Positions 17,900 to 60,733 of a DNA stretch of 64,000 nucleotides are shown piece by piece. The notes under the pieces were generated by a model that saw only the letters and a program-made list of their open reading frames with translations, was not told where the DNA came from and did not search any database. Position 1 is the first letter of the stretch; every line of letters begins with the position of its first letter. This DNA is from Pseudomonas sp. MAG733B. GTDB taxonomy: Bacteria; Pseudomonadota; Gammaproteobacteria; Pseudomonadales; Pseudomonadaceae. The stretch is from NCBI RefSeq assembly GCF_036884845.1, contig NZ_CP145732.1, positions 3,782,001-3,846,000 on the forward strand. Reading direction: 5' to 3'. The position numbers and the translations under genes are program-made.

Positions 17900-19018
17900 T
17901 CAGAGCGCACGTTGAGTCAACCCGGACCAGAACCCTGTGCTGCCGGCCGCAATCGCCGCCTGGCCAAGGACTTCTGCCCACTGCGCATCACTGCCGAACT
18001 CATCCCGCCAGGACCACAAGCGGCGGGTGTTGAAGTGCAAGGTGTGTTCGTGGGTGAAGCCGATCGCACCGTGAACCTGATGCGCCACTGAAGTGGCGAG
18101 CGTTGCTGCCTCTCCGGCGCAAACCTTGGCCACGGCCACATCAAACGCCAGGCAACTGCCGTTTCCGGATTCGGTTTGCAGGGTCTCGCATGCGCTGCGC
18201 AACGCCACCTGGGTCGCCATGCGCGCGGCGGCGATACTGCCGGCCATTGCAGCCAGTTGCTGCTGAATCGCCTGGAATTTGCCGATTGCCTTGCCGAACT
18301 GCGAGCGGTCATTGGCATAGCTCACAGCCTTGTCCAGGCTCGATTCAAGGGCACCGACCAGCATGCAGGCACGCATCAGCGCACCGAACACCCAGACCGG
18401 TTCAGCCACATCCGCCAATTGCAAATGGCCGACGGCATGCACGGCAGCGTTGGAAAAATGTACGGTATCGCGCTCTTCTCCGGCGAAATTGCTGCCGGTT
18501 TCCACAGCGACCGCCGTCAGATGAAGATCGACCAAGGCAATGCGACCGGGATCGGCTACCACAGCCCAGCGACAACTGCGCGCCCAAGGCACATTGAAGG
18601 CGCGACCTTCGAGATGGCCATCCTCGCTCAACTTGAGCTCACCAAGACGTCCGGCCTGGATCAGCGTGATGGGCCCCTCCGGCACTTGCAGTCCCGCGCG
18701 GGCCAGCAGCAGCGAGGCCACCATGGTTTCGCTCAACGCCAGTGGTGCACTCCAGTAGCCAATGGCCCGCAACACCGGACTCACTTCCAGCCAACTGGCA
18801 CCGCTACCACCCGATTCTTCAGGCACAAGGGCGCCGGGTAAACCTTGGGCCACCACCTGTTGCCACAGGTCGCTGGCCGCGTGACCGGTTTCGAAACGGG
18901 CGAGCAATTGGGGCGTGATCTGTTCGGCGAACAAGCCTTCTACGCTGTCGGCGATCATCGATTGCAGTTCGGACGGGGCGCCGTCGTCGGCGTGTTGAAA
19001 ATTCAAAGCCTGGTTCAT
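17900..19018 (-). CDS. Acyl-CoA dehydrogenase, non-catalytic-type partner subunit (pair 1)
   Basis: A 372-residue acyl-CoA dehydrogenase-fold protein. It keeps the FAD-contact motif RSQFGKAIGKFQAIQ and a C-terminal HGAIGFTHEHTLH block. At the position where IVD-type enzymes carry the catalytic Glu (xxER) it has ALMRACML, so the catalytic base appears missing. The upstream gene has the complementary pattern (Glu present, RxQFG absent). Sizes of 380 and 372 residues and the 4-base overlap resemble the heterotetrameric alpha2beta2 ACADs of sterol side-chain catabolism (FadE28-FadE29 type). Its stop is only 10 bases after the bidirectional terminator. Confidence 0.85.
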   Translation of the reverse strand: MNQALNFQHADDGAPSELQSMIADSVEGLFAEQITPQLLARFETGHAASDLWQQVVAQGLPGALVPEESGGSGASWLEVSPVLRAIGYWSAPLALSETMVASLLLARAGLQVPEGPITLIQAGRLGELKLSEDGHLEGRAFNVPWARSCRWAVVADPGRIALVDLHLTAVAVETGSNFAGEERDTVHFSNAAVHAVGHLQLADVAEPVWVFGALMRACMLVGALESSLDKAVSYANDRSQFGKAIGKFQAIQQQLAAMAGSIAAARMATQVALRSACETLQTESGNGSCLAFDVAVAKVCAGEAATLATSVAHQVHGAIGFTHEHTLHFNTRRLWSWRDEFGSDAQWAEVLGQAAIAAGSTGFWSGLTQRAL

Positions 19019-20157
19019 CGCAGTCCTAAGCCTCTGGCAATAATGCCGCGGAGAATTTCGCGGGTGCCGCCACGCAGGGAAAACGACGGGGCGGTCTGGG
19101 TCAGGTAACGCATCATCTGGTCGAGTCGGGAGTCGGGTTGGCGGACACCGCCAAACAGGTCATGGGCAAGGTCAGGCAGCGATTGCTCAAGCAGGGCCCC
19201 CTGATCCTTGACCAGCGCCGCCGGTGTGGCCGGGTTCTCACCGCGAGCGAGCATGCCGGCGACGCCCAGCGACATTTGCCGCAAAGCCGCGTAACGCGCG
19301 GCGACGCGGCCAAGGCTGACGGCGTGGCGCAGGTTCTGCGGATCGGCTGCGTCGAGCATTTCCAGATACAGTTGGGTGCAGCTCAGATAACGCTCCGGAC
19401 CACTGCGCTCCAGTGCCAGTTCGGCGCCCACCTGTTTCCAGCCGTCGCCGGGCTGGCCGATGAGGAAGTCATCGGGCACGAAGACGTTTTCCAGGAACAC
19501 TTCATTGAAGTCGTGCTCGCCGATCATGTTGTAGATCGGGCGAACCGTGACGCCGGGTGCCTGCAAGTCGACCAGCAGTTGCGACAGCCCCGCGTGACGG
19601 TTGCTTTCATCCTTCGGCCCGGTGCGCAGCAGGGTGACCATGTACTGGCTGCGGTGTGCGCCGGTGGTCCAGACCTTGCTGCCGTTGACCACCCAGCCGC
19701 CATCGACCTTGACGGCACGGGTGCGCACCGAGGCGAGGTCAGAGCCGACGTCCGGCTCACTCATGCCGATGCAGATCATCAGCTCACCACGGGCGATGGC
19801 CGGCAGAAAGCGCGGGGCCAGCACCTCAGGCGAGAACTTCATCAATAGCGGCCCGGACTGGCGTTCGGCGATCCAGTGCGCATTCACCGGCGCGCCGGCC
19901 GCCAGCAACTCTTCCAGCACCACATAACGCTCCAGGGCGCTGCGTTCGTGTCCGCCGTAACGCTTGGGCCACGTCATGCCCAGCCAACCGCGCTCACCCA
20001 GCTTTCGGCTGAACTCGAGGTCGGCGCCGTTCCAGTTTTTGGCGCGTTCGTGGGGTGGGAAGTCTTTCAGCGTTTCGGCGAGAAACTCACGCACTTCGGT
20101 GCGCAAGGCTTGCACCTGCACGCCAAGATGACAGGGCCGAATATCGAGTGCCTGCAT
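19015..20157 (-). CDS. Acyl-CoA dehydrogenase, catalytic-type subunit (pair 1)
   Basis: A 380-residue acyl-CoA dehydrogenase. FAD/substrate motifs include MICIGMSEPDVGSDLAS and the VNGSKVWTTGAH strand. A glutamate in LALERSGPER occupies the place of the catalytic base of the IVD-like group. The C-terminus SLRGGTREILRGIIARGLG lines the active site. It lacks the RxQFG arginine motif, which its downstream partner supplies. The two should form a mixed complex that oxidises a bulky or branched acyl-CoA and gives electrons to ETF. It is divergent from the enoyl-CoA hydratase gene at 20301, with the shared promoter region between them. Confidence 0.87.
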   Translation of the reverse strand: MQALDIRPCHLGVQVQALRTEVREFLAETLKDFPPHERAKNWNGADLEFSRKLGERGWLGMTWPKRYGGHERSALERYVVLEELLAAGAPVNAHWIAERQSGPLLMKFSPEVLAPRFLPAIARGELMICIGMSEPDVGSDLASVRTRAVKVDGGWVVNGSKVWTTGAHRSQYMVTLLRTGPKDESNRHAGLSQLLVDLQAPGVTVRPIYNMIGEHDFNEVFLENVFVPDDFLIGQPGDGWKQVGAELALERSGPERYLSCTQLYLEMLDAADPQNLRHAVSLGRVAARYAALRQMSLGVAGMLARGENPATPAALVKDQGALLEQSLPDLAHDLFGGVRQPDSRLDQMMRYLTQTAPSFSLRGGTREILRGIIARGLGLR

Positions 20158-20300
20158 GGCTTAATGCTCGTGTGAAAAAGGAAAAGGGGTTGAGGTTTTC
20201 TAACTTGCTGAACGCCCAACAAGTAAATAAGCTAACAGCAACCCCGGTGGCGAGCAAGCCGCCGTCAATCCGAAATAAATCCGTTGCTTCTGGAGTCTCC

Positions 20301-21086
20301 ATGTCGACGCACAGCGCTTTTAACCCCGGCCGCGGCCTCACCCTGGACCTGCAAGGTCATGTCGCCACAGTCAGTTTCAATCGACCACCGCTGAATTTCT
20401 TCGATGCCGAACTGATCCAGGATCTGGCCAATACCCTGCAATTTCTCGATGACTTGCCCGAGTGCCGGGTGGTGATTCTTCAGGCCGAAGGCAAGGTGTT
20501 TTGCGCCGGTGCCGACTTTTCCGGGCCAGAGCAGTGCGATCCGCAATACCCACGCCGCGTCTACAAATCCGCCGTGCGTCTGTTTCGCAACCGCAAGCCG
20601 ATGATCTGCGTGGTCGAAGGTGCGGCGATCGGTGGCGGGCTGGGTCTGGCGCTGGTGGCAGACTTTCGGGTGACCAGCGAGAAAGCGCGGTTTTCGGCGA
20701 ACTTCAACCGTTTGGGCATTCATCAGGGGTTCGGGATTTCGGTTACCATGCCGCGCGTGGTCGGCGTGCAGATGGCCTCGTTGCTGATCGCCACCGGGCG
20801 TCGCATCGATGGCCGCGAAGCCGTGCGCATCGGCCTCGCGGATGTGCTGGCAGAACCGGGCCAGGAGCGGCAAAAAGCCCGCGAGCTGGCTGAAGAAATC
20901 GCCGCTTCCGCACCGGCGGCAGTCATGTCGAGTCGCGAAACCCTGCGTATGGGATTGGCCGATGCCATCGACCGGATCATCGATCGCGAAGCCAGCGAGC
21001 AGGAGTGGCAGATTGTCAGTGCCGACTTCGCCGAGGGCACTCGCGCCATGACCGAGCGCCGCACTCCAGTGTTTACAGGACAGTAA
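20301..21086 (+). CDS. Enoyl-CoA hydratase/isomerase (crotonase)
   Basis: A 261-residue crotonase. The oxyanion-hole segment GKVFCAGADFSGPE is at about residues 66-79 and the second, EGAAIGGGLGLALVADFRV, at about 108-126. In the classic hydratase the two catalytic glutamates lie near 144 and 164; here the region reads FNRLGIHQGFGISVT, so at least one is replaced and the reaction could be hydration, isomerisation or C-C cleavage. ATG at 20301 with GGAG 6 bases upstream. The TetR gene starts 10 bases after its stop, so the two are probably cotranscribed. Confidence 0.85.
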   Translation: MSTHSAFNPGRGLTLDLQGHVATVSFNRPPLNFFDAELIQDLANTLQFLDDLPECRVVILQAEGKVFCAGADFSGPEQCDPQYPRRVYKSAVRLFRNRKPMICVVEGAAIGGGLGLALVADFRVTSEKARFSANFNRLGIHQGFGISVTMPRVVGVQMASLLIATGRRIDGREAVRIGLADVLAEPGQERQKARELAEEIAASAPAAVMSSRETLRMGLADAIDRIIDREASEQEWQIVSADFAEGTRAMTERRTPVFTGQ

Positions 21087-21096
21087 GGAATACCCG

Positions 21097-21747
21097 ATGG
21101 AACCCGTTGAAAAAACCGCCCAGCCTGCTTCGCGTCGTACCCAGCCCGAACGTCGCGCCGAAGCCGAGCAGCGATTGCTGATCGCCGCGCGACAGATCGT
21201 CGCGCGCAACGGCTGGGTCGGCATGACGTTGTCACAGGTCGGGGAGGAGGCCGGCTACAGCCGTGGTCTGGCGACTCATCACTTCGGCAACAAGGCCGGG
21301 CTGTTGCGCGCCCTGGCGGGTTTCGTCAATACCAGCTTCATGGCGCTGGTGGCGGACAAGGCCTCGCAGTGGCAACCGGGAATGGATGCGCTCAAGGGTT
21401 TTGTCGGGGTTTATCTGGTGCGCACCGACGGCGACTGGGTCAACACCCGCGCGCTGTTGGCGTTGATGTCTGAAGCGGTGACCCAGGATTCGGAAACCGC
21501 GCAAATACTCGCCGAGTACAACCGCTCGGTGCAGCAGCATCTGGCCGGCTACATTCGCGCCGGTATCGACAACGGCGAGATTCGGGCCAATGTCGACCCG
21601 CTGGCCGGCGCGCTGCTGATCCTGGGGACTTTGCGCGGCACGATGCTGCAAGTCTTGCTCGACCCCACAGACGTCGACCTTGGGGTCTTGCATGAGCAAT
21701 TGCTCGCCTTCATTGAAAACGCGCTGGCGTCCGTGCCAACGACCTGA
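21097..21747 (+). CDS. TetR-family transcriptional regulator
   Basis: A 216-residue repressor-type protein with an N-terminal helix-turn-helix (about residues 25-70, MTLSQVGEEAGYSRGLATHHFGNKAGLL) and a C-terminal ligand domain. The HTH matches TetR, and its neighbours suggest an acyl-CoA ligand. It lies directly downstream of the crotonase and likely controls that operon and the divergent ACAD pair. It converges on the large LuxR gene with only 9 bases between stops. Confidence 0.88.
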   Translation: MEPVEKTAQPASRRTQPERRAEAEQRLLIAARQIVARNGWVGMTLSQVGEEAGYSRGLATHHFGNKAGLLRALAGFVNTSFMALVADKASQWQPGMDALKGFVGVYLVRTDGDWVNTRALLALMSEAVTQDSETAQILAEYNRSVQQHLAGYIRAGIDNGEIRANVDPLAGALLILGTLRGTMLQVLLDPTDVDLGVLHEQLLAFIENALASVPTT

Positions 21748-21756: not shown

Positions 21757-24447
21757 TTACTCCAGCAAGCCCAGGGTCCGTGCGATTGAAACCGCTTCCG
21801 TGCGACTGCTGGCGCCGAGTTTGCTGTTGATCTTGCGCAAGTGCGATTTAACAGTCAGCTCGGACAGGAACATCTTTTCGGCAATCTCACGATTGCGATA
21901 ACCCAACGCCAACATGCGCAGCACCTGCAATTCACGGGCGGACAGGCTGGTTGGCGAGTCTTCCTCGCTCTTCGATTCGATTTCCTTGGCGCCACTGTTG
22001 CGCTGCAGCAACTGGCTGACGAATCCAGAGCGGATGCCCAAGGCCTCTACCTGGCCGTGAAAGGTCACCGACCAGCGTTCCAGCAGTGCCGCCAAAGGTG
22101 CGCCTTCATCAAGGAACGTGCGGACGAAGCCGACATGGCTGGCGAAACGCAGGGCCAGGGTCAGTTGCTCGAGCGCTTCCTTGTGCAGTTTCGCGCCATC
22201 GAGCGCCGTCGCCAGCAACAGGCGCAACTTCAGAGCGCGGCGGTATTGGTGACGTTGCAGGGCGATGTCCATGGCCTGACGCAGGCGTTCGATGGTGCTT
22301 TCGTCACCCTGGGCAATGCACAGGCGCTGACGCGTGATGAACGGTGCGTCGACATCGTTGGCGCTCAGCACCACCCCCGGTTGTTCCCAGTCGCTCAGTT
22401 GTTCGGCGGCGCGCATGGCGTGATCAGCGGTTTCCAGACGGTTTTCCAGGGTCGCGATGCGTGCCCGCTCCAGCCAGGCAGAGCAGAGGATGCGCGTCGA
22501 GCCGGCCACCTGGCCGAACTGGTCGAGATCGGCCAGATAGCGCATCCATGCCGCACGATCACCCTTGAGGTAGGCAATGCGTGCCTGCAACACGTGGGTG
22601 GTGATCAAGGAATCCGGCGCGGCATGTTCCTTGGCGTAAGGCAGCAAAACGTCGAGACATTGCTGCGCCTCTTCCAGTGCGTCGGTTTCATAAAGCACGA
22701 CACAATGGATGGTTTGCAGCACCGGAAAACCCACCGGCGGTGTACCGGCAAAAGACTCGCGACTGCGCTGCACGGCCGTGGTTACACGGGTTAGCGCGCT
22801 GTCCAGCTGACCTTGAGTCAGATCGAGCATGGCTTGCAGTGCATCGGTGGTGTCGCGCAGGTAAGTCGTTTCACGTTGTGCTTCACGCAACCCGGCGCTG
22901 CCGAGCTTTTGCCGGGCCTCATCGTAACGACCGGTGTAAAACAGACCACAGACCTGCACAAAAGCAGTGACCCTAAATTGCAACTTGTGCTCTGGCCCCA
23001 GTTGTTCCAGCAGCTCAGTGCTGGCTGCCAGCGCTTCGGGAATACGGTCGCCGATCAACAGCAGCAACGGATGGACATAGTGGTGTTCCCCCGCGAGCGC
23101 AGGGCTTTCCAATACTTGCAGGGCATCTTTGTGGCGACGGGCATGGAGCAACGCCCACGCGTAGGCAATGCCCAGCCCCGGATGCAACTCGCGAATCTCG
23201 TTCGGAATTCGCGAGAGCCAACGCATCAACAGGCTGGCGTGACCGTTCTCCACCAGTTCGTCGATATGCAGCACCAGTTGCGCGGCGGCTTCATCCAGCA
23301 AGTCGGCGGCGAACAAATGCTCAACGGCCTCGACAGGCTGGCCGTCGGCGAAACACCAGCGCGCTGCATGGCGACGTAGCTGTTCGGACAGGCCCGGATG
23401 TTGTTCCTCAAGCGTTTGCCGAAGGAAATCGGCGAAAAGCGAGTGATAGCGGAACCATTGGCGCTCATTGTCCGTGGCGACGATGAACAGGTTGCTGCGC
23501 TCCAGATCTTCGATCATCGATTTGCTGTCGCTGCGATCGCCGACGGCATCGCACAGGGCCGGACAGAACTGTTCCAGCACGCTGGTTTGCAACAGGAACT
23601 GGCGGCATGGCTCGCTCTGCCGCGCGTACACGTCTTCGGCGAAGTATTCCGCCAACGCAACGTTGGCGCCGCTGAACGAGAAAATGAATGCGGCCGGATC
23701 GCCATGCCATTGCAGGGACAACGTGGCCAGATAGATACCGGAAATCCAGCCTTCGGTGCGCTCATGCAGACTGGCGATTTCTGGTGCGGCGAGGGACAGT
23801 TGACGCTTTTCCCGAAGGTAGCGGGTCGTCTCATCGAGGCTCAAGCGCAATGCTTCGGTGCCGATTTCCAGCAATTCGCCGCGGGCGCGTAGACGGCCCA
23901 GATTGATCGGCGGTGTGGTGCGCGTCGCAATGGCGACCGTGGCGCGGGCGGGCAACGCCTTGAGCAGGTGCTGGAAAAAATCCATGGCCGCTGGATTGTT
24001 GATGGCTTCGAACTCATCCAGCAGCACAGCGAATGACTCGTTTATCGGAGCGATGTGCTCAAGCAACCATTGCTGCGCTTGTGCGGCATCGTCGCTACTC
24101 GGCGCGCCCGCGCTGTCGGCGATCAGGCCAAGATCGCGCAGCCCCGTGTACAGAACGCTGACCAGGCGTGCCACATCGTTGTCCGCCGCGTCGAGATTGC
24201 ACCACAACACCTGCCGCCCTTCAGCGAGGCAGCGTTCGCGGTACTGCTGCAGCAATGCGGTTTTGCCGTAACCGGCACCGGCGTTGATCAGGATCAGGCG
24301 TGCGCTTTCCCGTTGCGCCAGTTGTGCAAGCAGGGCCGAACGTTCCAATTGCCCGGGCAGGCTCGCCGGCGCCAGGAATTTGCTGGCGCGGATGTGCAGT
24401 TTTGCTCCCTGGGCTGGTTCGTTGGAACTACGTTCAAAACCTTCCAT
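21757..24447 (-). CDS. MalT-type LuxR-family ATPase regulator 1
   Basis: An 896-residue signal-transduction ATPase of the MalT class. The Walker A motif AGAGYGKT is at residues 56-63, with a Walker B-like LLDEFEAI near 145. A helical TPR-like sensor region follows (about 350-800), and a C-terminal LuxR HTH (LSARELQVLRMLALGYRNREIAEKMFLSELTVKSHL) lies in the last 65 residues. Such proteins bind an inducer and ATP, oligomerise and activate promoters. The ATG at 24447 has AGGA upstream. It is divergent from the aldehyde dehydrogenase gene at 24604, a likely target. Confidence 0.92.
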   Translation of the reverse strand: MEGFERSSNEPAQGAKLHIRASKFLAPASLPGQLERSALLAQLAQRESARLILINAGAGYGKTALLQQYRERCLAEGRQVLWCNLDAADNDVARLVSVLYTGLRDLGLIADSAGAPSSDDAAQAQQWLLEHIAPINESFAVLLDEFEAINNPAAMDFFQHLLKALPARATVAIATRTTPPINLGRLRARGELLEIGTEALRLSLDETTRYLREKRQLSLAAPEIASLHERTEGWISGIYLATLSLQWHGDPAAFIFSFSGANVALAEYFAEDVYARQSEPCRQFLLQTSVLEQFCPALCDAVGDRSDSKSMIEDLERSNLFIVATDNERQWFRYHSLFADFLRQTLEEQHPGLSEQLRRHAARWCFADGQPVEAVEHLFAADLLDEAAAQLVLHIDELVENGHASLLMRWLSRIPNEIRELHPGLGIAYAWALLHARRHKDALQVLESPALAGEHHYVHPLLLLIGDRIPEALAASTELLEQLGPEHKLQFRVTAFVQVCGLFYTGRYDEARQKLGSAGLREAQRETTYLRDTTDALQAMLDLTQGQLDSALTRVTTAVQRSRESFAGTPPVGFPVLQTIHCVVLYETDALEEAQQCLDVLLPYAKEHAAPDSLITTHVLQARIAYLKGDRAAWMRYLADLDQFGQVAGSTRILCSAWLERARIATLENRLETADHAMRAAEQLSDWEQPGVVLSANDVDAPFITRQRLCIAQGDESTIERLRQAMDIALQRHQYRRALKLRLLLATALDGAKLHKEALEQLTLALRFASHVGFVRTFLDEGAPLAALLERWSVTFHGQVEALGIRSGFVSQLLQRNSGAKEIESKSEEDSPTSLSARELQVLRMLALGYRNREIAEKMFLSELTVKSHLRKINSKLGASSRTEAVSIARTLGLLE

Positions 24448-24603
24448 GCATCCTACCTTTGGTTGTCGTCGTGTCGGGGTGGCGCTTTCTAGTATCGCTC
24501 GTCATGAGCCAGATCCGATCCATGGTGCGAGCCCGCCAGTGTAGCGGCCCGATACCTGATTGACAGCTCCCCGAACCGACCATTGCATGGAAGTCGAAAC
24601 ACC

Positions 24604-26016
24604 ATGAGTGCCAATGAAAACCTGTGTGCTGCCGAGATCCGCGTCATTCTCGACAAACAACGCGCCGCCTGTCTGGCCAACGAGCCGTGGACGGCGGAAC
24701 AACGCTGTGAACTGATCGACCGCGCCATCGGCCTGTTGGTCGACTACCAAGGCGAAATCATCGAAGCCCTGGCCGCGGACTTCGGTCACCGCAGCCCCGA
24801 TTTCTCGCGTCTGTTCGATGTGCTGGGGCCGCTGGCCTCACTGAAGTATACCAAGGCAAAAATCGCCGAATGGATGAAGCCTGACCAGCGAGCCACCGAC
24901 CGTGGCGAGGCGTGGGTGCAGTATCAGCCGTTGGGTGTGGTAGGTATTCTCACGGCCTGGAATTTTCCGGGGAATATGGTCTTCAACGGTCTGGCAGGCG
25001 CATTGGCTGCCGGCAACCGGGTGATGATCAAGGTTTCGGAATACAACCCGAAAACCTCCGAATTGCTCGCGCGGATGTTCCGCTCGGTGTACGCCGAAGA
25101 TGAAGTTGCGATCATTACCGGTGGACCTGAAGTCGGCCAGGCGTTCAGCAGCCAGCCGTTCGACCACCTGCTGTTTACCGGTGCCAGCAGCATCGGCAAG
25201 CACGTCATGCGCGCCGCCGCCGAGAATCTGGTGCCGGTGACGCTGGAACTGGGCGGCAAGTCGCCGGCCATCATTTCCCGCAGCGCTGACTTGAAAACCG
25301 CCGTCAGCAAAATCATCACTGGCAAACTGCACAACGCCGGCCAGATCTGCCTGGCACCGGATTACGTATTCGTTCCTGAAGAACTGCAGGACGCGTTCGT
25401 CGCCACCGTCAAGGAAGTGGTAGCCAAGCTATACCCGACGCTGCTGGAGAATCCGGACTACACCTCGGTCATCAATGCCCGCCATTTCGAGCGCCTGAAC
25501 GAATACCTCGACCAGGCGCGCAATGCTGATGTCGAGTTGATCGAACTGAATCCGGCCAACGAAGATTTCAGCGGCCAGCCGCATCACAAGATCGTCCCGA
25601 CCTTGCTGCGTGATCCGGGCGACGAACTGCTGGTCATGCAAGACGAAATCTTCGGTCCGTTGCTGCCGTTCAAGCCCTACAAGGATTTCGCCGAAGTGGT
25701 GGCCTACATCAACTCGCGCCCGCGTCCGCTGGGCCTGTACTACTTCGGCAACGATGCCACTGAAGAATCTTTCGTCCTCAATCGCACCACCTCCGGCGGT
25801 GTGACGCTCAACGACGTCCTGCGCCACGGCGGTGTCGAGACGCTGCCGTTCGGCGGTGTCGGCCACAGCGGCATGGGCAGCTACCACGGTTTCGACGGTT
25901 TCCGCACCTTCAGCCACGGCAAATCGGTACTGCGCGCCGCCGACGGCCCGGACCTGATGCGCCCGCCCTATGGCGAACAGATGCGTCAGATCGTCGGTTC
26001 GCTGATCAAGCGCTAA
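24604..26016 (+). CDS. Aldehyde dehydrogenase, coniferyl aldehyde dehydrogenase-like
   Basis: A 470-residue NAD(P)-dependent aldehyde dehydrogenase. The active-site Glu lies in TLELGGKSP and the nucleophilic Cys in NAGQICLAPDYVF. The segment GVVGILTAWNFPGNMVFNGLAGALAAGNRVMIK and the overall length match the coniferyl-type group, which act on bulky or fatty aldehydes. ATG at 24604 with GGAAG upstream. It is followed by a zinc alcohol dehydrogenase after 71 bases. Together they would take a primary alcohol to the acid before CoA activation. Confidence 0.9.
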   Translation: MSANENLCAAEIRVILDKQRAACLANEPWTAEQRCELIDRAIGLLVDYQGEIIEALAADFGHRSPDFSRLFDVLGPLASLKYTKAKIAEWMKPDQRATDRGEAWVQYQPLGVVGILTAWNFPGNMVFNGLAGALAAGNRVMIKVSEYNPKTSELLARMFRSVYAEDEVAIITGGPEVGQAFSSQPFDHLLFTGASSIGKHVMRAAAENLVPVTLELGGKSPAIISRSADLKTAVSKIITGKLHNAGQICLAPDYVFVPEELQDAFVATVKEVVAKLYPTLLENPDYTSVINARHFERLNEYLDQARNADVELIELNPANEDFSGQPHHKIVPTLLRDPGDELLVMQDEIFGPLLPFKPYKDFAEVVAYINSRPRPLGLYYFGNDATEESFVLNRTTSGGVTLNDVLRHGGVETLPFGGVGHSGMGSYHGFDGFRTFSHGKSVLRAADGPDLMRPPYGEQMRQIVGSLIKR

Positions 26017-26087: not shown

Positions 26088-27173
26088 ATGAAAGCTGCCG
26101 TATTTCACAAACCCGGTACGCCACTGACCATCGAAAACGTCAGCATCAGCAAACCCGGCCCACGGGAAGTGCTGGTGCGTACCGTTGCCGTTGGCGTTTG
26201 CCATTCCGATCTGCATTTCGTCGATGGTGCTTATCCGCATCCGACCCCGGTGGTGCTCGGTCACGAGGCCTCGGGCATCGTCGAACAGGTCGGTTGCGAT
26301 GTGCGCACCGTAAAACCGGGCGATCACGTGGTGACGTGCCTTTCCGCCTATTGCGGGCACTGTGAACATTGCGTCACCGGCCATCTGTCACTGTGCATTT
26401 CGCCCGACACCAAGCGCGGCGCGGACGAAGAACCACGCCTGACCTACGTACAGAAGCCGATGACCCAGTTCATCAACCTGTCGGCCTACGCCGAACAGAT
26501 GCTGGTGCATGAGCACGCACTGGTCGCCATCCGCCGCGACATGCCGCTGGACCGCGCAGCGCTGCTCGGTTGTGCGGTCACCACCGGCACCGGCGCGGTG
26601 TTCAATACCGCCAAGGTTCGCCCGGGTGAAACCGTGGCCGTGATCGGTTGCGGCGGTATCGGCTTGGCTACCATCAACGGTGCGGCGCTGGCCGGTGCCG
26701 GCCGGATCATCGCCATCGACATGCTCGATTCCAAACTGGAACTGGCCCGGCAATTTGGCGCCACCGACGTGGTCAACGCCAAGGACGGTGACGCCGTGAA
26801 AATGGTCCAGGAATTGACCCGTGGTGGTGTGCATCACTCCTTCGAATGCATCGGCTTGAAGCAAACCGCCGAGCAGGCTTTCGCCATGCTGGCTCGCGGC
26901 GGCACGGCCACGATCATCGGCATGATCAAGCCTGGCCTGAAGCTGGAAATCGATCCGCTGGCGTTGCTCCACGAGCGGCGCATCCAGGGTTCGTTCATGG
27001 GTTCCAACCGTTTCCCGGTCGACCTGCCGCGTTTGACCGACTTCTACATGCAGGGCCGGCTCAAGCTCGACGAAATGATTTCGCAGCGCATCAAGCTAGA
27101 GCAAATCAACGAGGCCTTCGATGAACTGCGCCACGGCGAACTCGCACGCTCGGTCATCGTCTTCGACCAGTGA
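26088..27173 (+). CDS. Zinc-dependent alcohol dehydrogenase
   Basis: A 361-residue medium-chain dehydrogenase. The catalytic zinc site includes GVCHSDLHF and the GHEASG motif. The structural zinc has four cysteines in CGHCEHCVTGHLSLC. The nucleotide motif GCGGIGLATINGA ends with an acidic residue (IAIDML), which favours NAD. It is similar to the class III-like group that oxidises primary alcohols. ATG at 26088 is preceded by AAGAGAATAAGAAT. It likely works with the aldehyde dehydrogenase upstream. Confidence 0.9.
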   Translation: MKAAVFHKPGTPLTIENVSISKPGPREVLVRTVAVGVCHSDLHFVDGAYPHPTPVVLGHEASGIVEQVGCDVRTVKPGDHVVTCLSAYCGHCEHCVTGHLSLCISPDTKRGADEEPRLTYVQKPMTQFINLSAYAEQMLVHEHALVAIRRDMPLDRAALLGCAVTTGTGAVFNTAKVRPGETVAVIGCGGIGLATINGAALAGAGRIIAIDMLDSKLELARQFGATDVVNAKDGDAVKMVQELTRGGVHHSFECIGLKQTAEQAFAMLARGGTATIIGMIKPGLKLEIDPLALLHERRIQGSFMGSNRFPVDLPRLTDFYMQGRLKLDEMISQRIKLEQINEAFDELRHGELARSVIVFDQ

Positions 27174-27264: not shown

Positions 27265-28461
27265 ATGGACATCCAGTTCAGCCCTGAGGAAGTCGAATTT
27301 CGCGAAGAGGTCCGCGCCTTTCTACGGGACCAGCTACCGGCGGATATCGCCGCCCGAATCAACCAAGGCAAGAGCGTCTGCAAAGACGATCAGGTGCGCT
27401 GGATGCGCATTCTCAATGACAAGGGCTGGCTGGCTGCAAGCTGGCCGGTGGAGCAGGGCGGCACCGGTTGGGGCGCGGTGCAAAAGCATATTTTCGACGA
27501 AGAGTGCTCAGTGGCGGGCGCACCCAGAATCGTGCCGTTCGGCGTGAACATGGTCGGCCCGGTGATCATCAAGTTCGGCACGCCCGAGCAAAAGGCGCAT
27601 TACCTGCCGCGCATTCTCAATTGCGATGACTGGTGGTGTCAGGGCTATTCCGAACCCGGCGCCGGCTCCGACCTGGCCAGCCTGAAAACCCGTGCCGTGC
27701 GCGATGGCGACCATTATGTGGTCAATGGCCAGAAAACCTGGACCTCCACCGGCCATATGGCCGACTGGATGTTCTGTCTGGTGCGTACCGATGTCGAGGC
27801 GCAGCAGCAACGCGGAATTTCCTTCCTGCTGATCGACATGAAGACTCCCGGCATCACCGTGCGGCCGATCATCACCCTCGAAGGTGGTCACTACGTCAAC
27901 GAAGTGTTCCTCGACAATGTACGCGTGCCGGTGCAGAACCTGGTCGGTCGTGAGAACGAAGGCTGGACCTGCGCCAAATACCTGCTCACCCATGAGCGCA
28001 CGACCATCGCCGGTATCGGCATTGCCAAGGCCATGCTCGCGCGCCTGAAAAAGATCGCCAGTGTCGAGAAGCGCAACGGTAAACCGCTGATCGAGGACCC
28101 GGGCTTTCGCGCACAAATCGCCGACGTCGAAATCCAGTTGATGGCTATCGGCATGAGCAACTTGCGCATCCTCGCTGCGGCCCGCGATGGCGGCGTCCCA
28201 GGTTCGGAAAGCTCGATCCTGAAAATCAAGGGCACCGAGATCCGCCAGGCCATCACTTACCTGTTGACCAAGGCAGCGGGGCCTTATGCCGTGCCGTTGC
28301 TCAAGGACGAGTTGGGTTACGACTTCGATGGCGAGTTGCTGCACAACGCCTACAGCACCACGTCGACCTGCCAGTACCTGGAAATGCGCAAAGCCTCGGT
28401 CTACGGCGGGTCCACGGAAATCCAGAAGAACATCATCGCCAAGATGATTCTCGAACTGTAA
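27265..28461 (+). CDS. Acyl-CoA dehydrogenase, catalytic-type subunit (pair 2)
   Basis: A 398-residue acyl-CoA dehydrogenase. It has WWCQGYSEPGAGSDLAS, a Glu in THERTTIAG at the IVD-type base position, and a C-terminal VYGGSTEIQKNII. It lacks the RxQFG motif in the third domain. The gene 10 bases downstream has [15 protein letters not shown] but no Glu, so the two complement each other as in alpha2beta2 FadE26-FadE27-type enzymes. ATG at 27265 is preceded by GAGG. Confidence 0.9.
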   Translation: MDIQFSPEEVEFREEVRAFLRDQLPADIAARINQGKSVCKDDQVRWMRILNDKGWLAASWPVEQGGTGWGAVQKHIFDEECSVAGAPRIVPFGVNMVGPVIIKFGTPEQKAHYLPRILNCDDWWCQGYSEPGAGSDLASLKTRAVRDGDHYVVNGQKTWTSTGHMADWMFCLVRTDVEAQQQRGISFLLIDMKTPGITVRPIITLEGGHYVNEVFLDNVRVPVQNLVGRENEGWTCAKYLLTHERTTIAGIGIAKAMLARLKKIASVEKRNGKPLIEDPGFRAQIADVEIQLMAIGMSNLRILAAARDGGVPGSESSILKIKGTEIRQAITYLLTKAAGPYAVPLLKDELGYDFDGELLHNAYSTTSTCQYLEMRKASVYGGSTEIQKNIIAKMILEL

Positions 28462-51812: not shown

Positions 51813-51921
51813 ACCCAACTGCCGCGCGGTCGGTTCGGCCGCGCCATTTTTTAATACCGGAATCCGTGCCGCATCGTTGAGAACGGTCGGGTTTCCTTGC
51901 GCCAAAACCATCGGAGGACGC

Positions 51922-53742
51922 ATGAGCATTACGAGATTGCGTGGAGCTTGCTACCCACATCTGCTGGCAGTCGCCGTCGCAGCCGCAGTTACCCCACAGG
52001 CTTTTGCCAAGGATTTCAGCATCGGCGAAATCGAAGGCAGTTTCGATTCCGCATTATCGGTCGGCGCCAGCTGGGCCGTTCGCGGCCCCGACCCGGACTT
52101 CATTTCCAACTTCAACTCGCAGGGAACCCGAGGCAATGCGTCGTCGCGGACCAATGACGATAACCGCCTGAATTTCAAGAAGGGCGAAACCTTCTCGAAG
52201 ATCTTCAAGGGGGTGCACGACCTGGAGTTGAAGTACGGCGACAGCGGTGCTTTCGTGCGCGGCAAATACTGGTACGACTTCGAGCTGATGGACGAGAGCC
52301 GTCCGTTCTACGACGTCGATGATCATGGCCGCCAGCGTGCGGCGAAGTCGTCCGGGGCGATGTTCCTCGACAGCTTCGTCTATCACAACTACACCCTCGA
52401 CGATTTGCAGGGCAACGTTCGCCTGGGCAAGCAGGTGGTGAGTTGGGGCGAAAGCACCTTCATCGGCAACTCGATCAACAGCATCAACCCGATCGACGTG
52501 GCAGCGCTGCGTCGTCCCGGCGCCGAGGTCAAGGAAGGGCTGATTCCGGTGAACATGCTGTACGTCTCGCAGGGCCTGTCGGAAAACGTTACCGCCGAAG
52601 CCTTCTATCAGATCGAATGGGCACCGTCGGTGATCGACAACTGCGGCACCTTCTTCGGCAACGACGTGACGCCGGAAGGCTGTAATGACCGCGCCGTGCT
52701 GGCGGGCCTTGATCTGCCGCCCGGCGTGGCCAATAACACCGGCACACCCGGGCTGCTCGACGATGCCTACATTCCGCGCACCAAGACCAAGGATGCCCGT
52801 GACAGCGGCCAGTTCGGCCTGGCGTTGCGCTGGTTCGCCGCAGAGCTGAACGACACCGAGTTCGGTGTTTATGCAATGAATTACCACAGTCGCAACCCAA
52901 GCCTGAACTTTACCCGTGCGACCAGTACGGCCAACGCTGTGGCCGCGATTCGCAGTGCCAGTTACAACGTGGTCTATCCCGAGGACGTGCGCCTGTACGG
53001 CTTGAGTTTCGCCACCAACGTGCTCGGCACTTCGCTGGGCGGCGAGCTGAGTTTTCGGCCGAACATGCCGTTGAACCTCAACGGCGCCGACATCAACCTG
53101 GCCGCCGTGGGCAACGCTGCGTCACCGTTGTTCGTCAGCGGTCAGTCCGCCAATGTCGCCGGGGCAGCCGTCGATGGCTACAAGCGCATGCCGGTGTTGC
53201 AGGCGCAGATGACGGCCACGCAATTCTTCGATCAGGTCCTCGGCGCCGAGCGTCTGACGCTGGTGGGCGAGGTCGGTTACAACCGCATCAACGGCCTGGG
53301 CTCCAGTGACGGTACTGAAGAGCGTTTTGGCCGCAACTCCGTGTTCGGCGCCGGGCAACTGGTCAATCAGGCGGTCTGCGTCGGGCAGAACACGCCGGTT
53401 CCCGGTCAGCCCGGCGCCACCCGCCCGAGCAACCCGCAGCAGGAATGCAACAGCCACGGTTTCTACACCACCGACTCGTGGGGCTACCGCCTGCGCGGGA
53501 AGCTCGAATACCCCAACGTGTTCGCCGGCATCAACCTGTCGCCCAACGTGGCCTGGTCCCATGACGTCGATGGCGTCGGCCCGAACTTCGAGGAAGGCAA
53601 CAAGGCGATCAGCCTCGGCGTGGATGCCGACTACATGAACACCTACACCGCGAGCCTCAGTTACACCGATTACTTCGGCGGAAAGTGGAATACCAACACT
53701 GATCGCGACTATGTCGCCCTCAGCTTCGGCGTGAACTTCTGA
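51922..53742 (+). CDS. DUF1302 outer-membrane porin-like protein
   Basis: A 606-residue exported protein. The chosen start (ATG 51922, GGAGGA upstream) gives a signal peptide ending near AFAK (about residue 29). The body is rich in alternating strands with repeated GxFVRGKYWYDFE-type beta motifs and ends in a C-terminal Phe (GVNF), the usual outer-membrane beta-barrel signature. DUF1302 proteins usually pair with DUF1329, as here; both are found with hydrophobic-compound degradation and export. The role of transporting a hydrophobic substrate or product is inference. Confidence 0.85.
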   Translation: MSITRLRGACYPHLLAVAVAAAVTPQAFAKDFSIGEIEGSFDSALSVGASWAVRGPDPDFISNFNSQGTRGNASSRTNDDNRLNFKKGETFSKIFKGVHDLELKYGDSGAFVRGKYWYDFELMDESRPFYDVDDHGRQRAAKSSGAMFLDSFVYHNYTLDDLQGNVRLGKQVVSWGESTFIGNSINSINPIDVAALRRPGAEVKEGLIPVNMLYVSQGLSENVTAEAFYQIEWAPSVIDNCGTFFGNDVTPEGCNDRAVLAGLDLPPGVANNTGTPGLLDDAYIPRTKTKDARDSGQFGLALRWFAAELNDTEFGVYAMNYHSRNPSLNFTRATSTANAVAAIRSASYNVVYPEDVRLYGLSFATNVLGTSLGGELSFRPNMPLNLNGADINLAAVGNAASPLFVSGQSANVAGAAVDGYKRMPVLQAQMTATQFFDQVLGAERLTLVGEVGYNRINGLGSSDGTEERFGRNSVFGAGQLVNQAVCVGQNTPVPGQPGATRPSNPQQECNSHGFYTTDSWGYRLRGKLEYPNVFAGINLSPNVAWSHDVDGVGPNFEEGNKAISLGVDADYMNTYTASLSYTDYFGGKWNTNTDRDYVALSFGVNF

Positions 53743-53767: not shown

Positions 53768-55135
53768 ATGAAATCCAGCACTCTGATCAAAGCCTGCACA
53801 TTGACCCTGACCCTGATTGCCTCCAGCGTGATGGCGGCCGTTTCCCCGCAAGAAGCGGCGCAATTGGGCACCACGCTCACGCCGCTTGGCGGGGAAAAGG
53901 CCGGCAATGCCAGCGGCACCATTCCCGCCTGGACCGGTGGCCTTAAACCCGGTGCCGCGCCGATGCAGAATGACTTTCTCGGCAACCCGTTCGAAGGCGA
54001 AAAACCACAGTTCGTGATCACGGCCGCCAACGTCGCGCAGTACAAGGACAAGCTCACCGCCGGGCAACTGGCGATGTTCCAGCGCTACCCGGACAGCTAC
54101 AAAATCCCGGTGTACAAGAGCCAGCGCACGGCATCGGCACCGCAAGCGGTGTACGACGCGGTGAAAAAAAGCGCGGTAACCACCGAAGCGGCCAATGACG
54201 GTTATTCGTTGAAGAACTTCGAGCAGTCGCGCTACTACGCGTTCCCGATTCCCAAGAACGGCCTGGAAGTGGTGTGGAACCATCTGACCCGTTCCCACGG
54301 CAACAGCTATATCAATCGCCAGGTCCAGGCTACCCCGCAAGTCAACGGCGATTACACCTTGGTGCAGATCGAAATCGAGACCGGGTTTCCGTGGAAGATG
54401 TCGGACGCCAAGCCAGATGAAAGCGCCAACATTCTGTTCTATGCCAAGCAGACGGTGACTGCGCCGGCGCGTATGGCCGGCAGTGTGCTGTTGATTCACG
54501 AAACCCTTGATCAGGTCAAGGAACCGCGCATGGCCTGGGCCTACAACGCGGGCCAGCGCCGCGTGCGTCGTGCCCCGCAAGTGGCCTATGACGGACCGGG
54601 CACCGCCGCCGACGGGATGCGCGTCGCCGACAACGCCGACATGTACAACGGCGCACCGGATCGCTATGACTGGAAGCTGATCGGCAAGAAGGAAGTCTAC
54701 GTTCCCTACAACAACTACCTGCTGCAATCGCCGAAGCTGAAGTACGCCGACATCATCAAGCCTGGCCATATCAACCAGGACCTGACGCGCTATGAACTGC
54801 ATCGCGTGTGGGAAGTGGAGGGCACCCTCAAGCCTGGCCAACGCCACATTTACGCCAAGCGCCACATGTACATCGACGAGGACACCTGGGCTGCCGTGGA
54901 AATCGACCAGTACGACGGTCGCGGCCAGCTGTGGCGGGTCAGCGAAGGTTACCTGGTCAATGATTACCAGCAGGGCGTCGCCACCTACGCAGCCATGGGC
55001 ATCTATGACCTGATCGCCGGGCGGTATCTGGTGTCGAACCTGGGCAATGAGAACAAGCGTGGCACCGACTACGCCTACCAGCCGACCATGAATGATTTCA
55101 CTCCGGCCGCACTGCGCAACGCCGGTATTCGCTAA
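53768..55135 (+). CDS. DUF1329 periplasmic/outer-membrane-associated protein
   Basis: A 455-residue protein with a signal peptide (residues 1-23, ending VMA). It carries the family's AAQLGTTLTPLGGEKAGNASGTIPAWTGG start and RRAPQVAYDGPGTAADGMR core. DUF1329 members have a lipid-binding fold related to LolA/LolB in structural comparisons I recall. It is the standard partner of DUF1302 and lies 25 bases after it. Together they probably handle a hydrophobic molecule across the outer membrane. Confidence 0.85.
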   Translation: MKSSTLIKACTLTLTLIASSVMAAVSPQEAAQLGTTLTPLGGEKAGNASGTIPAWTGGLKPGAAPMQNDFLGNPFEGEKPQFVITAANVAQYKDKLTAGQLAMFQRYPDSYKIPVYKSQRTASAPQAVYDAVKKSAVTTEAANDGYSLKNFEQSRYYAFPIPKNGLEVVWNHLTRSHGNSYINRQVQATPQVNGDYTLVQIEIETGFPWKMSDAKPDESANILFYAKQTVTAPARMAGSVLLIHETLDQVKEPRMAWAYNAGQRRVRRAPQVAYDGPGTAADGMRVADNADMYNGAPDRYDWKLIGKKEVYVPYNNYLLQSPKLKYADIIKPGHINQDLTRYELHRVWEVEGTLKPGQRHIYAKRHMYIDEDTWAAVEIDQYDGRGQLWRVSEGYLVNDYQQGVATYAAMGIYDLIAGRYLVSNLGNENKRGTDYAYQPTMNDFTPAALRNAGIR

Positions 55136-55219: not shown

Positions 55220-56407
55220 ATGCCGCAAAAACCTTACGTTGCCGGCGTCGGCATGATCCCGTTCGTCAAGCCTGGCACCAGTGGCACCTACATCGAAATG
55301 GGCTCCGAGGCGATTCGCCTGGCCCTGCAAGATGCGGGTCTGGATTACAAACTGGTGCAGCAAGCTTATGCCGGATACGTTTACGGGGACTCCACCAGCG
55401 GTCAGGCGGCCCTTTATGAAGTGGGCATGAGCGGCATTCCGGTGATCAACGTCAACAACAACTGCGCCACTGGCTCCAGCGCACTGTTCCTCGCGCGCCA
55501 GGCCGTGGAAAGCGGTGCGGTCGACTGCGCGCTGGCGTTCGGTTTCGAGCAGATGCAGCCCGGCGCCCTGAAAGGCAACTGGGACGACCGCCCGCGCGCC
55601 ACCACACACATGACCCAGTCGGTGATCGACGAACTGACCGCCGACGTGGATATCCCGAGTGCCCTGCGGATGTTCGGCGGCGCCGGTCGCGAGCACATGC
55701 AGAAGTACGGTACCCAGATGAGCACCTTCGCCGCGATCCGCGCCAAGGCCAGCCGTCACGCGGCCAATAATCCACTGGCGCTGTTCCGCAAAGTGGTGAC
55801 CACCGAAGACGTGATGAACGATCAACTGATCTGGCCCGGGGTGATGACTCGCTTGATGGCGTGCCCACCGACTTGCGGTGCTGCGGCAGCGATCATCTGC
55901 TCCGAAGCTTTCGCCAAGAAACATGGTTTGCGCACCGACGTGGTGATCCTTGCCCAGTCGTTGACCACTGACAAACCGGTTTGCTTCGAGACCCGCTCGA
56001 TGATCGAAGTCGTCGGTTTCGACATGGCCCAACGGGCCGCCCGGGAAGTGTACGAGAAGGCCGGCGTCGACCCGCTGGACATCCGCGTCGCCGAAATGCA
56101 CGACTGCTTTGCCCACAACGAACTGCTGACCTACGAATCCCTGGGCCTGTGCGATGTCGGCGGCGCCGAGCAGTTCATCCTCGACGGTAAAAACACCTAC
56201 GGTGGCCAAGTGGTGACCAACCCGTCCGGTGGCCTGCTGTCAAAGGGGCATCCGTTGGGCGCGACCGGTTTGGCGCAATGCTACGAGCTGACCCATCAAC
56301 TGCGTGGCAGCGCTGACAAGCGTCAGGTGGAAGGCGTCAATGTGGCGCTGGCACACAACCTGGGTCTGGGCGGTGCTTGCGTGGTGACGCTGTACGGCCG
56401 AGCCTGA
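55220..56407 (+). CDS. SCPx-type thiolase 3 (lipid-transfer protein family)
   Basis: A 395-residue thiolase. NVNNNCATGSSALFLARQA (nucleophile Cys82), AGYVYGDSTSGQAALYEVG and the end GGACVVTLYGRA are nearly those of the human SCPx thiolase domain. HDCFAHNELL and GHPLGATG are conserved. It should cleave 3-oxo-2-methyl or other branched 3-oxoacyl-CoA. It is the last gene of the rightward block and is followed by a clear terminator. Confidence 0.92.
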   Translation: MPQKPYVAGVGMIPFVKPGTSGTYIEMGSEAIRLALQDAGLDYKLVQQAYAGYVYGDSTSGQAALYEVGMSGIPVINVNNNCATGSSALFLARQAVESGAVDCALAFGFEQMQPGALKGNWDDRPRATTHMTQSVIDELTADVDIPSALRMFGGAGREHMQKYGTQMSTFAAIRAKASRHAANNPLALFRKVVTTEDVMNDQLIWPGVMTRLMACPPTCGAAAAIICSEAFAKKHGLRTDVVILAQSLTTDKPVCFETRSMIEVVGFDMAQRAAREVYEKAGVDPLDIRVAEMHDCFAHNELLTYESLGLCDVGGAEQFILDGKNTYGGQVVTNPSGGLLSKGHPLGATGLAQCYELTHQLRGSADKRQVEGVNVALAHNLGLGGACVVTLYGRA

Positions 56408-59497: not shown

Positions 59498-59516
59498 GCC
59501 CCCCATGCCGGGGGGC
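59498..59516. promoter_or_regulatory. GC-palindrome between the divergent propeller and AMACR genes
   Basis: GCCCCCC (59498-59504) and GGGGGGC (59510-59516) are perfect inverted arms with 5 bases between. It is placed about midway in the 193-base divergent space, suitable for an operator. Confidence 0.5.
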
Positions 59517-59617
59517 ATGTTCGGGGTGGGTGCTCTGCTAGCGTACTGGCCATGCTTCGCGCATCGCAGGCGATCGCGCCCCCTGTGTCAGCTCACGACG
59601 AACAAGGAAAAAAACAC

Positions 59618-60733
59618 ATGCTGTCAGGTATCAAAATCGTGGAAATCTGTGGCATCGGCCCGGGGCCGTTCTGTGCCATGCACCTGGCCGATCTGGGCGC
59701 AGATGTCATCGCCGTGGAGCGCGCAGAATCCATCTCGATCACCGGCGAAGCCAACGCTCCGGCCAACCCGCTGAACCGGGGCAAACGCTCGGTGGTGGCC
59801 GACCTGAAAAGCCCTGAAGGGCGCGAAGCGGTCCTGAAGCTCATCGAAAGCGCCGACGTCGTGATCGAAGGCATGCGCCCCGGTGTCATGGAGCGACTTG
59901 GCCTCGGTCCGCAGGAATGCCAGGCGCGCAATCCAAGACTGGTTTATGGACGCATGACCGGTTGGGGCCAGAACGGCCCGATGGCCAGCGCCGCCGGCCA
60001 CGACAACAACTACATCGCACTCTCGGGTGCGCTGTACCACAGCGGCACGGCTGGGGAAGCGCCTTCATCGCCGATCACCCTGATCGGCGACATTGGCGGT
60101 GGCGCGTTGTACCTGGCGGTCGGTGTGCTGGCCGGTGTCCTCAGTGCCCGGCAGACCGGCAAGGGCACCGTCGTCGACGCCGCCATCGTCGACGGCTCGG
60201 CGCACATGATGCAGCTGATGATGTCACTGACCCGCCGTGGTCTGCTCAATGAGCAGCGCGGCAAGAGCGTCCACGATGGTTCGCACTTCTACGCCACTTA
60301 TCGCTGCGCCGATGACCAATACGTGGCACTGGGCTCGATGGAGCCGCAGTTCTACGCGCTGCTGCTGCAAAAACTGGGTTTGCAGGACGATCCGCGTTTC
60401 GCCAAACAATGGGATGTGAAGCGTTGGGAAGAGCTGCGTGGGCTGCTGGCCGATACGTTTGCCAGCCAGCCGCGCGCGCACTGGTGCGATCTGCTCGAAG
60501 GCACCGATGTGTGCTTTGCGCCGGTGCTGAGCCCGCGTGAAGCCTCGCAACATCCGCATATGGTCGAACGAGGCGTGTACTTCGAGCGCGACGGAATGCT
60601 GCAAGCCAGCCCGGCACCGCGTTTCGATGGCCAGGTCGCGACGCCGGGGGCGATTCCGACACGCGGCGCGCACACCGCCCAAGTCTTGGCGGCTCTCGAT
60701 AGCAACGACCTCGCCGCCGTCTGGCAGTCGTAG
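59618..60733 (+). CDS. Alpha-methylacyl-CoA racemase (CaiB/BaiF CoA-transferase family)
   Basis: A 371-residue protein. The pattern CGIGPGPFCAMHLADLGADV, RGKRSVVADLK, MTGWGQNGP and AGHDNNYIALSG follows human AMACR and mycobacterial MCR through the length. The catalytic pair is His128 (AGHD) and Asp158 (GDIGGGALY), equivalent to His126 and Asp156 in MCR. It converts 2R- to 2S-methylacyl-CoA so that stereospecific dehydrogenases can act, which fits the SCPx thiolases. ATG at 59618. It ends TAG at 60731 and a regulator fragment follows in the same reading frame. Confidence 0.9.
   Translation: MLSGIKIVEICGIGPGPFCAMHLADLGADVIAVERAESISITGEANAPANPLNRGKRSVVADLKSPEGREAVLKLIESADVVIEGMRPGVMERLGLGPQECQARNPRLVYGRMTGWGQNGPMASAAGHDNNYIALSGALYHSGTAGEAPSSPITLIGDIGGGALYLAVGVLAGVLSARQTGKGTVVDAAIVDGSAHMMQLMMSLTRRGLLNEQRGKSVHDGSHFYATYRCADDQYVALGSMEPQFYALLLQKLGLQDDPRFAKQWDVKRWEELRGLLADTFASQPRAHWCDLLEGTDVCFAPVLSPREASQHPHMVERGVYFERDGMLQASPAPRFDGQVATPGAIPTRGAHTAQVLAALDSNDLAAVWQS

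Follow-up and report, generated by a model that had tools for sequence, protein, structure and literature searches.

Animals shorten 2-methyl-branched acyl chains in the peroxisome by means of alpha-methylacyl-CoA racemase (AMACR), acyl-CoA oxidase, MFE-2 and SCPx, and shortening of the C27 side chain is the step that they use to make C24 bile acids. Whether bacteria hold a comparable gene set, and for which substrate, is a question raised by a stretch of 64,000 nucleotides from Pseudomonas sp. MAG733B, hereafter the window (C1:3782001-3846000 of this strain's genome, G000, which is 6.65 Mb on a single contig). At 17.9-60.7 kb the window carries an island of genes that a preliminary description had taken for a candidate counterpart of peroxisomal 2-methyl-branched acyl-CoA oxidation, with a branched aliphatic or terpenoid alcohol, and not a steroid, as its probable substrate. 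For the predicted proteins, a 2-methyl-branched beta-oxidation module is the best reading of the gene set, a pathway type for which the sequences, the residues of the active sites and the joint occurrence of AMACR and a thiolase all speak. The island is probably catabolic and would oxidise, by the steps set out below, a bulky primary alcohol that is methyl-branched at the carbon adjoining the carbinol carbon.

Protein families were called by Pfam, NCBIfam and PDB sequence searches, and co-occurrence was counted in one fixed set of 199 genomes of the same genus (Pseudomonas). The thresholds were at least 45% identity for AMACR, E <= 1e-80 for the thiolase and for HsaC-like proteins, and E <= 1e-140 for KstD-like proteins; three genomes with AMACR matches of 37-38% were excluded from the resulting set of 15 AMACR genomes. 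All co-occurrence and placement statistics ignore the relatedness of the genomes.

Enzymes of the island

All of the enzymes named in the preliminary description are present. Read from the ATG at 59618, AMACR has His at residue 128 and Asp at residue 158, as had been described, and its best PDB match is M. tuberculosis MCR (1x74; 353 bits), against 134 bits for the top CoA-transferase. By these comparisons the predicted protein is closer to MCR/AMACR than to family III CoA-transferases and its active site is intact.

The three thiolases (74-76% mutually identical) score 631, 657 and 666 bits against PRK08256, 'lipid-transfer protein', with a cut-off of 436. Thiolase 2, the only one searched against the PDB, has SCP2-thiolase type-1 as its best match (416 bits; next family 179). 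When read from the ATG starts at 37055, 45972 and 55220, all three have the nucleophilic Cys at residue 82, keep the HDCF and GHP motifs and end in GGACV(V/I)TL(Y/F)GR, in agreement with the SCPx-type enzymes with SCPx-like ends that had been described; the motifs are intact in 19/19 island-type copies compared. No window thiolase has an SCP2 domain match and the open reading frames (ORFs) run to 395-408 residues, so that these are not full SCPx proteins. MCR and SCP2-thiolase type-1, the latter structure presumably from M. smegmatis, are the nearest solved relatives of the island AMACR and of thiolase 2.

At the position of the MaoC hydratase there are indeed two genes, with the hydratase-2 motif (GDHNPIHVD) in one subunit and absent from its partner. 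Of the two short-chain dehydrogenases (SDRs), the one at 48130 is MFE2-like in that its best PDB match is 2et6, the C. tropicalis MFE-2, a score raised by the two SDR domains of 2et6; NCBIfam ranks FabG models first. Dehydrogenase and hydratase are separate ORFs in the window and no MFE-2 fusion was found.

Two pairs of acyl-CoA dehydrogenases (ACADs) look heteromeric, as first described, in the adjacency of their genes, in having the catalytic Glu in one subunit alone and in the affinity of the larger subunits, which match the heteromeric enzymes Tcur3481-3483 and ChsE4-ChsE5 best. The entries 6wy8/6wy9 and 4x28 head the PDB matches of the larger subunit of pair B (200, 200 and 198 bits; next 121) and, narrowly, that of pair A (136, 136 and 129 bits; next 125). 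Pair B's Glu aligns with Glu247 of 4x28_A, which we take to be the catalytic base of ChsE4. The small subunits do not single out heteromeric steroid ACAD entries: for the pimD-like subunit of pair B isovaleryl-CoA dehydrogenase comes first (114 bits; Tcur3481 104), and for that of pair A, the more reduced of the two partners, the best ACAD is 4n5f (55.9 bits; 4x28_D, the ChsE5 side, 55.8). With adjacent genes and a helix-G Glu in one subunit, both are predicted to be pairs of the ChsE4-ChsE5 type. Of acyl-CoA oxidases there are only short ACOX_C_alpha1 matches, in two window ACADs. At locus L050 (P. fluorescens PS862), positions 2776-3030 encode the last 85 residues of the pair A small subunit (90.6% identical) beside an enoyl-CoA hydratase; no close match to the large subunit was found at this locus, and the fragment is an apparent deletion remnant.

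Pfam and NCBIfam also bear out the acyl-CoA synthetase, the alcohol dehydrogenase (ADH), the aldehyde dehydrogenase (ALDH) and the electron transfer flavoprotein genes etfBA. To these can be added two crotonases, the ACADs C1, D2 and E5, four MalT-like LuxR regulators, a TetR-type regulator, an MFS transporter and the DUF1302, DUF1329 and DUF2889 genes, which had been missed or mis-framed. At the thresholds used, few genomes of the genus have AMACR (15/199) or the SCP2-type thiolase (16/199), and the thiolase is present in 10 of the 15 AMACR genomes, compared to 6 of the other 184.

Further copies and conserved gene order

The genome holds a second cluster at 97494-113864 in window coordinates, comprising AMACR, pimCD, thiolase, hydratase pair, SDR, ACAD, ligase, DUF1302/1329 and DUF2889, and a third at C1:3100593-3125402 (loci L175 and L176), approximately 0.7 Mb from the window. 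AMACR and ACAD pair A are both present in the window and were not found in the third cluster; a division of labour is possible. The third cluster is of a conserved type, seen in six fetched regions of the same genus, with the order SDR-MaoC-FASdh-thiolase-ACAD, LuxR, AMACR-ECH-ligase-ligase-ACAD-thiolase, DUF1302-DUF1329, LuxR, ALDH-ADH-pimC-pimD, where ECH is enoyl-CoA hydratase. AMACR is present in five of the six, the ECH of the adjoining position in five (not G055) and pair A in four (not G000 or G055). In G117, G135 and G159 the fetched stretch does not reach all of the ALDH-pimD side; for G117 it is seen at locus L072. This side is found also in P. fluorescens C8 (L053), Pseudomonas sp. 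PB120 (L057) and P. laurylsulfatiphila (L058).

The second cluster has a DUF1254/DUF1214 protein on either side (at 95989-97164 and 114069-115382 in window coordinates; L038 and L040), and another lies beside the cluster of G200 (L190).

Association with steroid-ring genes

HsaC-like genes are found in 26 of the 199 genomes and KstD-like genes in the same 26. These ring genes accompany AMACR in 10/15 carriers compared to 16/184 other genomes (p 5e-7), or in 11/18 compared to 15/181 when the three genomes with 37-38% matches are added, and they accompany the thiolase in 8/16 compared to 18/183 (p 2e-4). They fall into two divergent types (14 and 12 genomes), with each of which AMACR is enriched (p 0.0016 and 0.0007). 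Of 15 named genomes, a non-random choice from 80 pimC loci, 12 encode an HsaC-like protein with 52% identity or more; in several of the 15, pimC stands without the rest of the island adjoining.

In the same-genus genome G015, orthologues of the island occupy 82.9-110 kb of a joined stretch (identities: MFS 82%, EtfA 79%, EtfB 86%, pimD 75%, pimC 70%, ALDH 75%, ACAD 72%, SDR 65%, MaoC 62%, thiolase 64%), with AMACR (~51%) at 79.4 kb and an HsaC-like gene (270 bits, cut-off 450) at 76.7 kb, ~2 kb from AMACR. KstD-like (579 bits to PRK07843, cut-off 788) and HsaA-like (367 bits, cut-off 450) genes lie at 52.8-55.8 kb; all three ring genes are called '-like' because they fall under curated cut-offs. 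The stretch also encodes MaoC-DUF35 (Shy-type), ChsH2-type and thiolase-like proteins, 'Sal-type' here being a label from neighbours and missing motifs; the three thiolase-like proteins lack all three thiolase motifs, as searched. A predicted bile-acid-type side-chain set is present in G015, therefore, alongside the island orthologues.

Association with sulfatases

In four of the six genomes with the conserved cluster, G000 included, a PF00884 sulfatase with the motif CTAGR lies 0.4-2.2 kb past the SDR end; that of G000 is at C1:3098051-3099577, beside the third cluster, and the fetched sequence flanking the conserved cluster yielded none in G117 or G055. Related PF00884 copies occur in G015, at 3.4 kb from AMACR, and in G055, at 2.0 kb from a thiolase. 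In G015 an SdsA-type alkyl sulfatase is situated 0.25 kb from AMACR; in G074, G156, G157 and G206, four genomes that all have ring genes, the distance between the two is 4.1-4.7 kb. The clusters of these four also hold DUF1302, DUF1329, a GMC oxidoreductase, DUF2889 and ALDH, with thiolases only 32-35% like those of the window; in G156 and G157, AMACR and the HsaC-like gene are more than 200 kb apart on one contig.

Across the genus, the copies placed within 10 kb of AMACR or thiolase genes number 6 among 58 for PF00884 (0.20 expected) and 5 among 50 for the SdsA type (0.17 expected), together 11 against an expectation of about 0.4; they fall in ten genomes, the case in G000 being at 3.10 Mb. 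At the genome level SdsA is present in 10/15 AMACR genomes compared to 32/184 others (p 9e-5).

Proposed pathway and substrate

We infer the order of steps, the stereochemistry, the role in transport and the substrate from the families, active-site residues, co-occurrence and neighbourhood reported above. A sulfatase, encoded beside the clusters of relatives and, in G000, at the third cluster ~0.7 Mb away, would free the alcohol from its sulfate ester, and the DUF1302/DUF1329 proteins may bring the hydrophobic substrate in. ADH and ALDH would then make the acid, CoA ligase would activate it, and AMACR would set the 2-methyl carbon to the configuration that the next enzyme accepts. The heteromeric ACAD pair with EtfBA would give the enoyl-CoA, to be hydrated by the MaoC heterodimer and oxidised by the SDR, likely by a 3R route as in MFE-2, and the SCP2-type thiolase would release propionyl-CoA. 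Later rounds could draw on the further ACADs, crotonases and thiolases.

Desulfation, oxidation of the alcohol, activation with CoA, racemisation and a single round that releases propionyl-CoA would suit a primary alcohol that is sulfated and 2-methyl-branched, and 5alpha-cyprinol 27-sulfate and like bile alcohols have this shape. The C27 side chain of sulfated bile alcohols is, tentatively, the likeliest natural substrate of the family; for the window strain, without ring genes, another branched alcohol is about as likely. The exclusion of a steroid in the preliminary description does not hold as stated. Given the ties of the module to steroid-ring genes and to sulfatases in relatives, a bulky branched alcohol in sulfated form is the stronger candidate; a non-steroid may still be the substrate in G000, which has no ring-gene orthologues. 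It is possible, if rather doubtful, that pseudomonads hold a pathway dedicated to C27 bile alcohols in sulfated form, for instance those of fish, and under special regulation of its own. It would run from sulfatase through oxidation of the alcohol and the aldehyde, activation with CoA, epimerisation by AMACR and one peroxisome-like round, with propionyl-CoA out, and pass the C24 bile acyl-CoA to the known Shy/Sal and ring pathways. If true, this would mirror, in catabolism, the final steps by which animals make bile acids.

Several observations weigh against a steroid or bile-alcohol substrate. Searched at E <= 1e-10, HsaC has no match in the whole G000 genome, where the best KstD match has only 39% identity (330 bits) and HsaA reaches 138 bits (cut-off 450); the HsaA, HsaC and KstD orthologues of 9,10-seco ring degradation are thus not found in this genome, as had been said of the window, where the ORFs scanned hold no ring genes, and from these scores the known ring route in the window strain looks closed. 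Across 204 kb, made up of the window with 40 kb upstream and 100 kb downstream, no sulfatase, GMC, KstD or HsaC query has a match, and no P450 was found in G000 or G015. Ring genes are lacking in 5/15 AMACR genomes and 8/16 thiolase genomes, were seen beside the module in G015 alone, and in the AMACR genomes G074 and G206 no thiolase was found at E <= 1e-80. Both sulfatase families are common (PF00884 in 45/199 genomes, SdsA in 42/199), PF00884 is weakly tied to AMACR at the genome level (7/15 compared to 38/184, p 0.03), the 11 sulfatase placements amount to about five separate ones, and no listed sulfatase lies within 10 kb in 5/15 AMACR genomes (G109, G117, G158, G179 and G201). Finally, PimC/PimD-type pairs elsewhere act on other substrates, as the family name implies.

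The substrates might instead be acyclic isoprenoids or alkanols with a 2-methyl branch (acids of the pristanic type, terpenoid alcohols in dihydrogenated form), with the sulfatase links reflecting alkyl-sulfate surfactants or unrelated neighbours. We consider this unlikely, though a serious alternative: it suits a genome devoid of ring-gene orthologues, an SdsA-type enzyme is described as hydrolysing primary alkyl sulfates (PMC5426288), the sodium dodecyl sulfate degrader P. laurylsulfatiphila (PMC6107682) has the ADH-side part of the cluster, and DUF1302/1329 proteins are described as serving growth on monoterpenes and Tween. It does not account for the co-occurrence of AMACR with two types of ring genes, for larger ACAD subunits that are nearest steroid ACADs, for the region that the G015 orthologues share with ring genes, or for the ring genes of all four genomes seen with AMACR-GMC-ALDH-SdsA clusters (G074, G156, G157 and G206). 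A strain that only trims steroid or triterpenoid side chains without attacking the nucleus, and so gains propionyl- and acetyl-CoA or supplies neighbours that degrade the rings, would fit the presence of AMACR and thiolase without ring-gene matches in G000, G117 and G159; it would presuppose a use of steroids by these three strains, and we regard it as improbable.

Least credible is ordinary, broad lipid beta-oxidation by duplicated fatty-acid genes with no branched role, in which case the AMACR homologue would be an unspecific racemase or else a CoA-transferase. In its favour, the ACAD, crotonase, SDR and ligase families are common, the NCBIfam matches of island proteins mostly fall under curated cut-offs, and PimC relatives occur in Burkholderiales, Marinobacter and others, many of the 48 loci mapped having little other island content nearby. 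Against this stand an AMACR whose active site is intact and whose score is far above those of CoA-transferases, the rarity of AMACR and SCP2-type thiolase together with their joint presence in ten genomes, and the conserved order of many genes.

Relation to known systems

As an analogy, the comparison with peroxisomal oxidation is fair. The island has a racemase, a hydratase-2 with SDR and an SCP2-type thiolase, with propionyl-CoA as expected product, and the type of pathway stands; the proteins are not SCPx and MFE-2 as such, given separate hydratase and SDR genes and thiolases with no SCP2 domain match, and ACAD with ETF is used in place of an oxidase. The Atu/Liu pathway for acyclic terpenes uses a biotin-dependent carboxylase for the 3-methyl branch; no such carboxylase was found among the window ORFs scanned. 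Actinobacterial cholesterol side-chain degradation (ChsE4-ChsE5, Hsd4A, FadA5) shares with the island a heteromeric ACAD of the ChsE4-ChsE5 kind, an enzyme described as acting on C26-oyl-CoA in actinobacteria (PMC6678751). The island differs in its SCP2-type rather than FadA5-type thiolases, its ADH and ALDH, the sulfatase neighbours in relatives and the lack of a P450 in G000. This last point agrees with a 2016 survey (PMC4810484), which reported no evidence of cholesterol use by Proteobacteria and noted that Cyp125 and Cyp142 are lacking.

Heteromeric ACAD pairs are also a feature of proteobacterial bile-acid side-chain degradation (Scd1AB, Shy, Sal, Scd2AB), and such a set lies in the G015 region of island orthologues. 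Unlike the Shy/Sal system, the island thiolases keep their Cys, HDC and GHP motifs, and no DUF35 match was found among the window ORFs scanned. A term search of the bile-acid review PMC8399759 does not return 'racemase', and its passages on cyprinol sulfate mention it just as a fish bile salt and signal. The DUF1302/DUF1329 pair resembles AmeAB of Castellaniella defragrans, where an ameB insertion is described as lowering growth on monoterpenes, and PP_0765/PP_0766 of P. putida, described as required for Tween 20; unlike these, it sits inside branched-chain oxidation genes.

Taken singly, the enzymes have been known from mycobacteria and other degraders of steroids. Their linkage is new: known families stand together in a Pseudomonas island that is conserved, present in several copies and, in relatives, adjoined by sulfatase genes. 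Our literature searches found no bacterial gene set for bile alcohol sulfates or similar sulfated branched alcohols. If the proposal is true, it explains how soil and water bacteria start using such compounds, and it points to AMACR, SCP2-type thiolase, heteromeric ACADs and a regulator set for study in tractable Pseudomonas strains, and provides a point of comparison for peroxisomal branched-chain oxidation.

Gene content of the island

Table 1. Predicted genes of the island and its 3' neighbour, in window coordinates.
Feature	Position	Strand	Remarks
ACAD pair A, small subunit	17900..19018	-	without catalytic Glu; no Pfam middle-domain match
ACAD pair A, larger subunit	19015..20157	-	Glu in ER motif, E250; best PDB Tcur3483, ChsE4
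Enoyl-CoA hydratase (crotonase)	20301..21086	+	
TetR-type regulator	21097..21747	+	
MalT-like LuxR regulator	21757..24447	-	
Aldehyde dehydrogenase (ALDH)	24583..26016	+	
Zinc alcohol dehydrogenase (ADH), class III-like	26088..27173	+	
ACAD pair B catalytic subunit, pimC-like	27265..28461	+	Glu244 aligns with Glu247 of 4x28_A
ACAD pair B partner subunit, pimD-like	28472..29614	+	no Glu at that position
Electron transfer flavoprotein beta, etfB	29772..30521	+	
Electron transfer flavoprotein alpha, etfA	30521..31450	+	
MFS transporter	31507..32841	+	nearest models galactonate and HpaX type, both under cut-off
MalT-like LuxR regulator	32890..35682	-	
Acyl-CoA dehydrogenase C1	35928..37019	+	
SCP2-type thiolase 1	37055..38242	+	Cys82 in NNACATGS; HDCF, GHP
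Short-chain dehydrogenase (SDR)	38301..39131	+	66% identical to SDR at 48130
DUF2889 protein	39253..39828	+	recurrent in clusters of the island kind
MalT-like LuxR regulator	39801..42746	+	
Enoyl-CoA hydratase (crotonase)	42759..43598	-	
Acyl-CoA dehydrogenase D2	43636..44784	-	
SCP2-type thiolase 2	45972..47156	+	Cys82
Hydratase partner subunit (FAS1_DH / MFE-2 hydratase N-domain like)	47205..47651	+	without hydratase-2 motif
MaoC-type hydratase subunit	47623..48096	+	motif GDHNPIHVD
Short-chain dehydrogenase	48130..48963	+	best PDB C. tropicalis MFE-2 dehydrogenase
Acyl-CoA dehydrogenase E5	49035..50177	+	
Acyl-CoA synthetase (CoA ligase)	50250..51812	+	
DUF1302 protein	51877..53742	+	family of AmeA and PP_0765
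DUF1329 protein	53768..55135	+	family of AmeB and PP_0766
SCP2-type thiolase 3	55220..56407	+	Cys82
Alpha-methylacyl-CoA racemase (AMACR)	59618..60733	+	His128, Asp158
Short MalT-like LuxR protein, 395 aa	60869..62056	+	TPR and HTH matched, no ATPase domain

Between thiolase 3 and AMACR, positions 57706-59553 of the minus strand encode a predicted protein of 615 residues with good codon use and no Pfam match, and with no relative among the loci compared. Upstream of the island, the selenocysteine machinery (selA, selB and tRNA-Sec) is found at 10856-14292. The short LuxR protein at 60869-62056, directly 3' of AMACR, has relatives of ~41% identity at loci L050 and L044.

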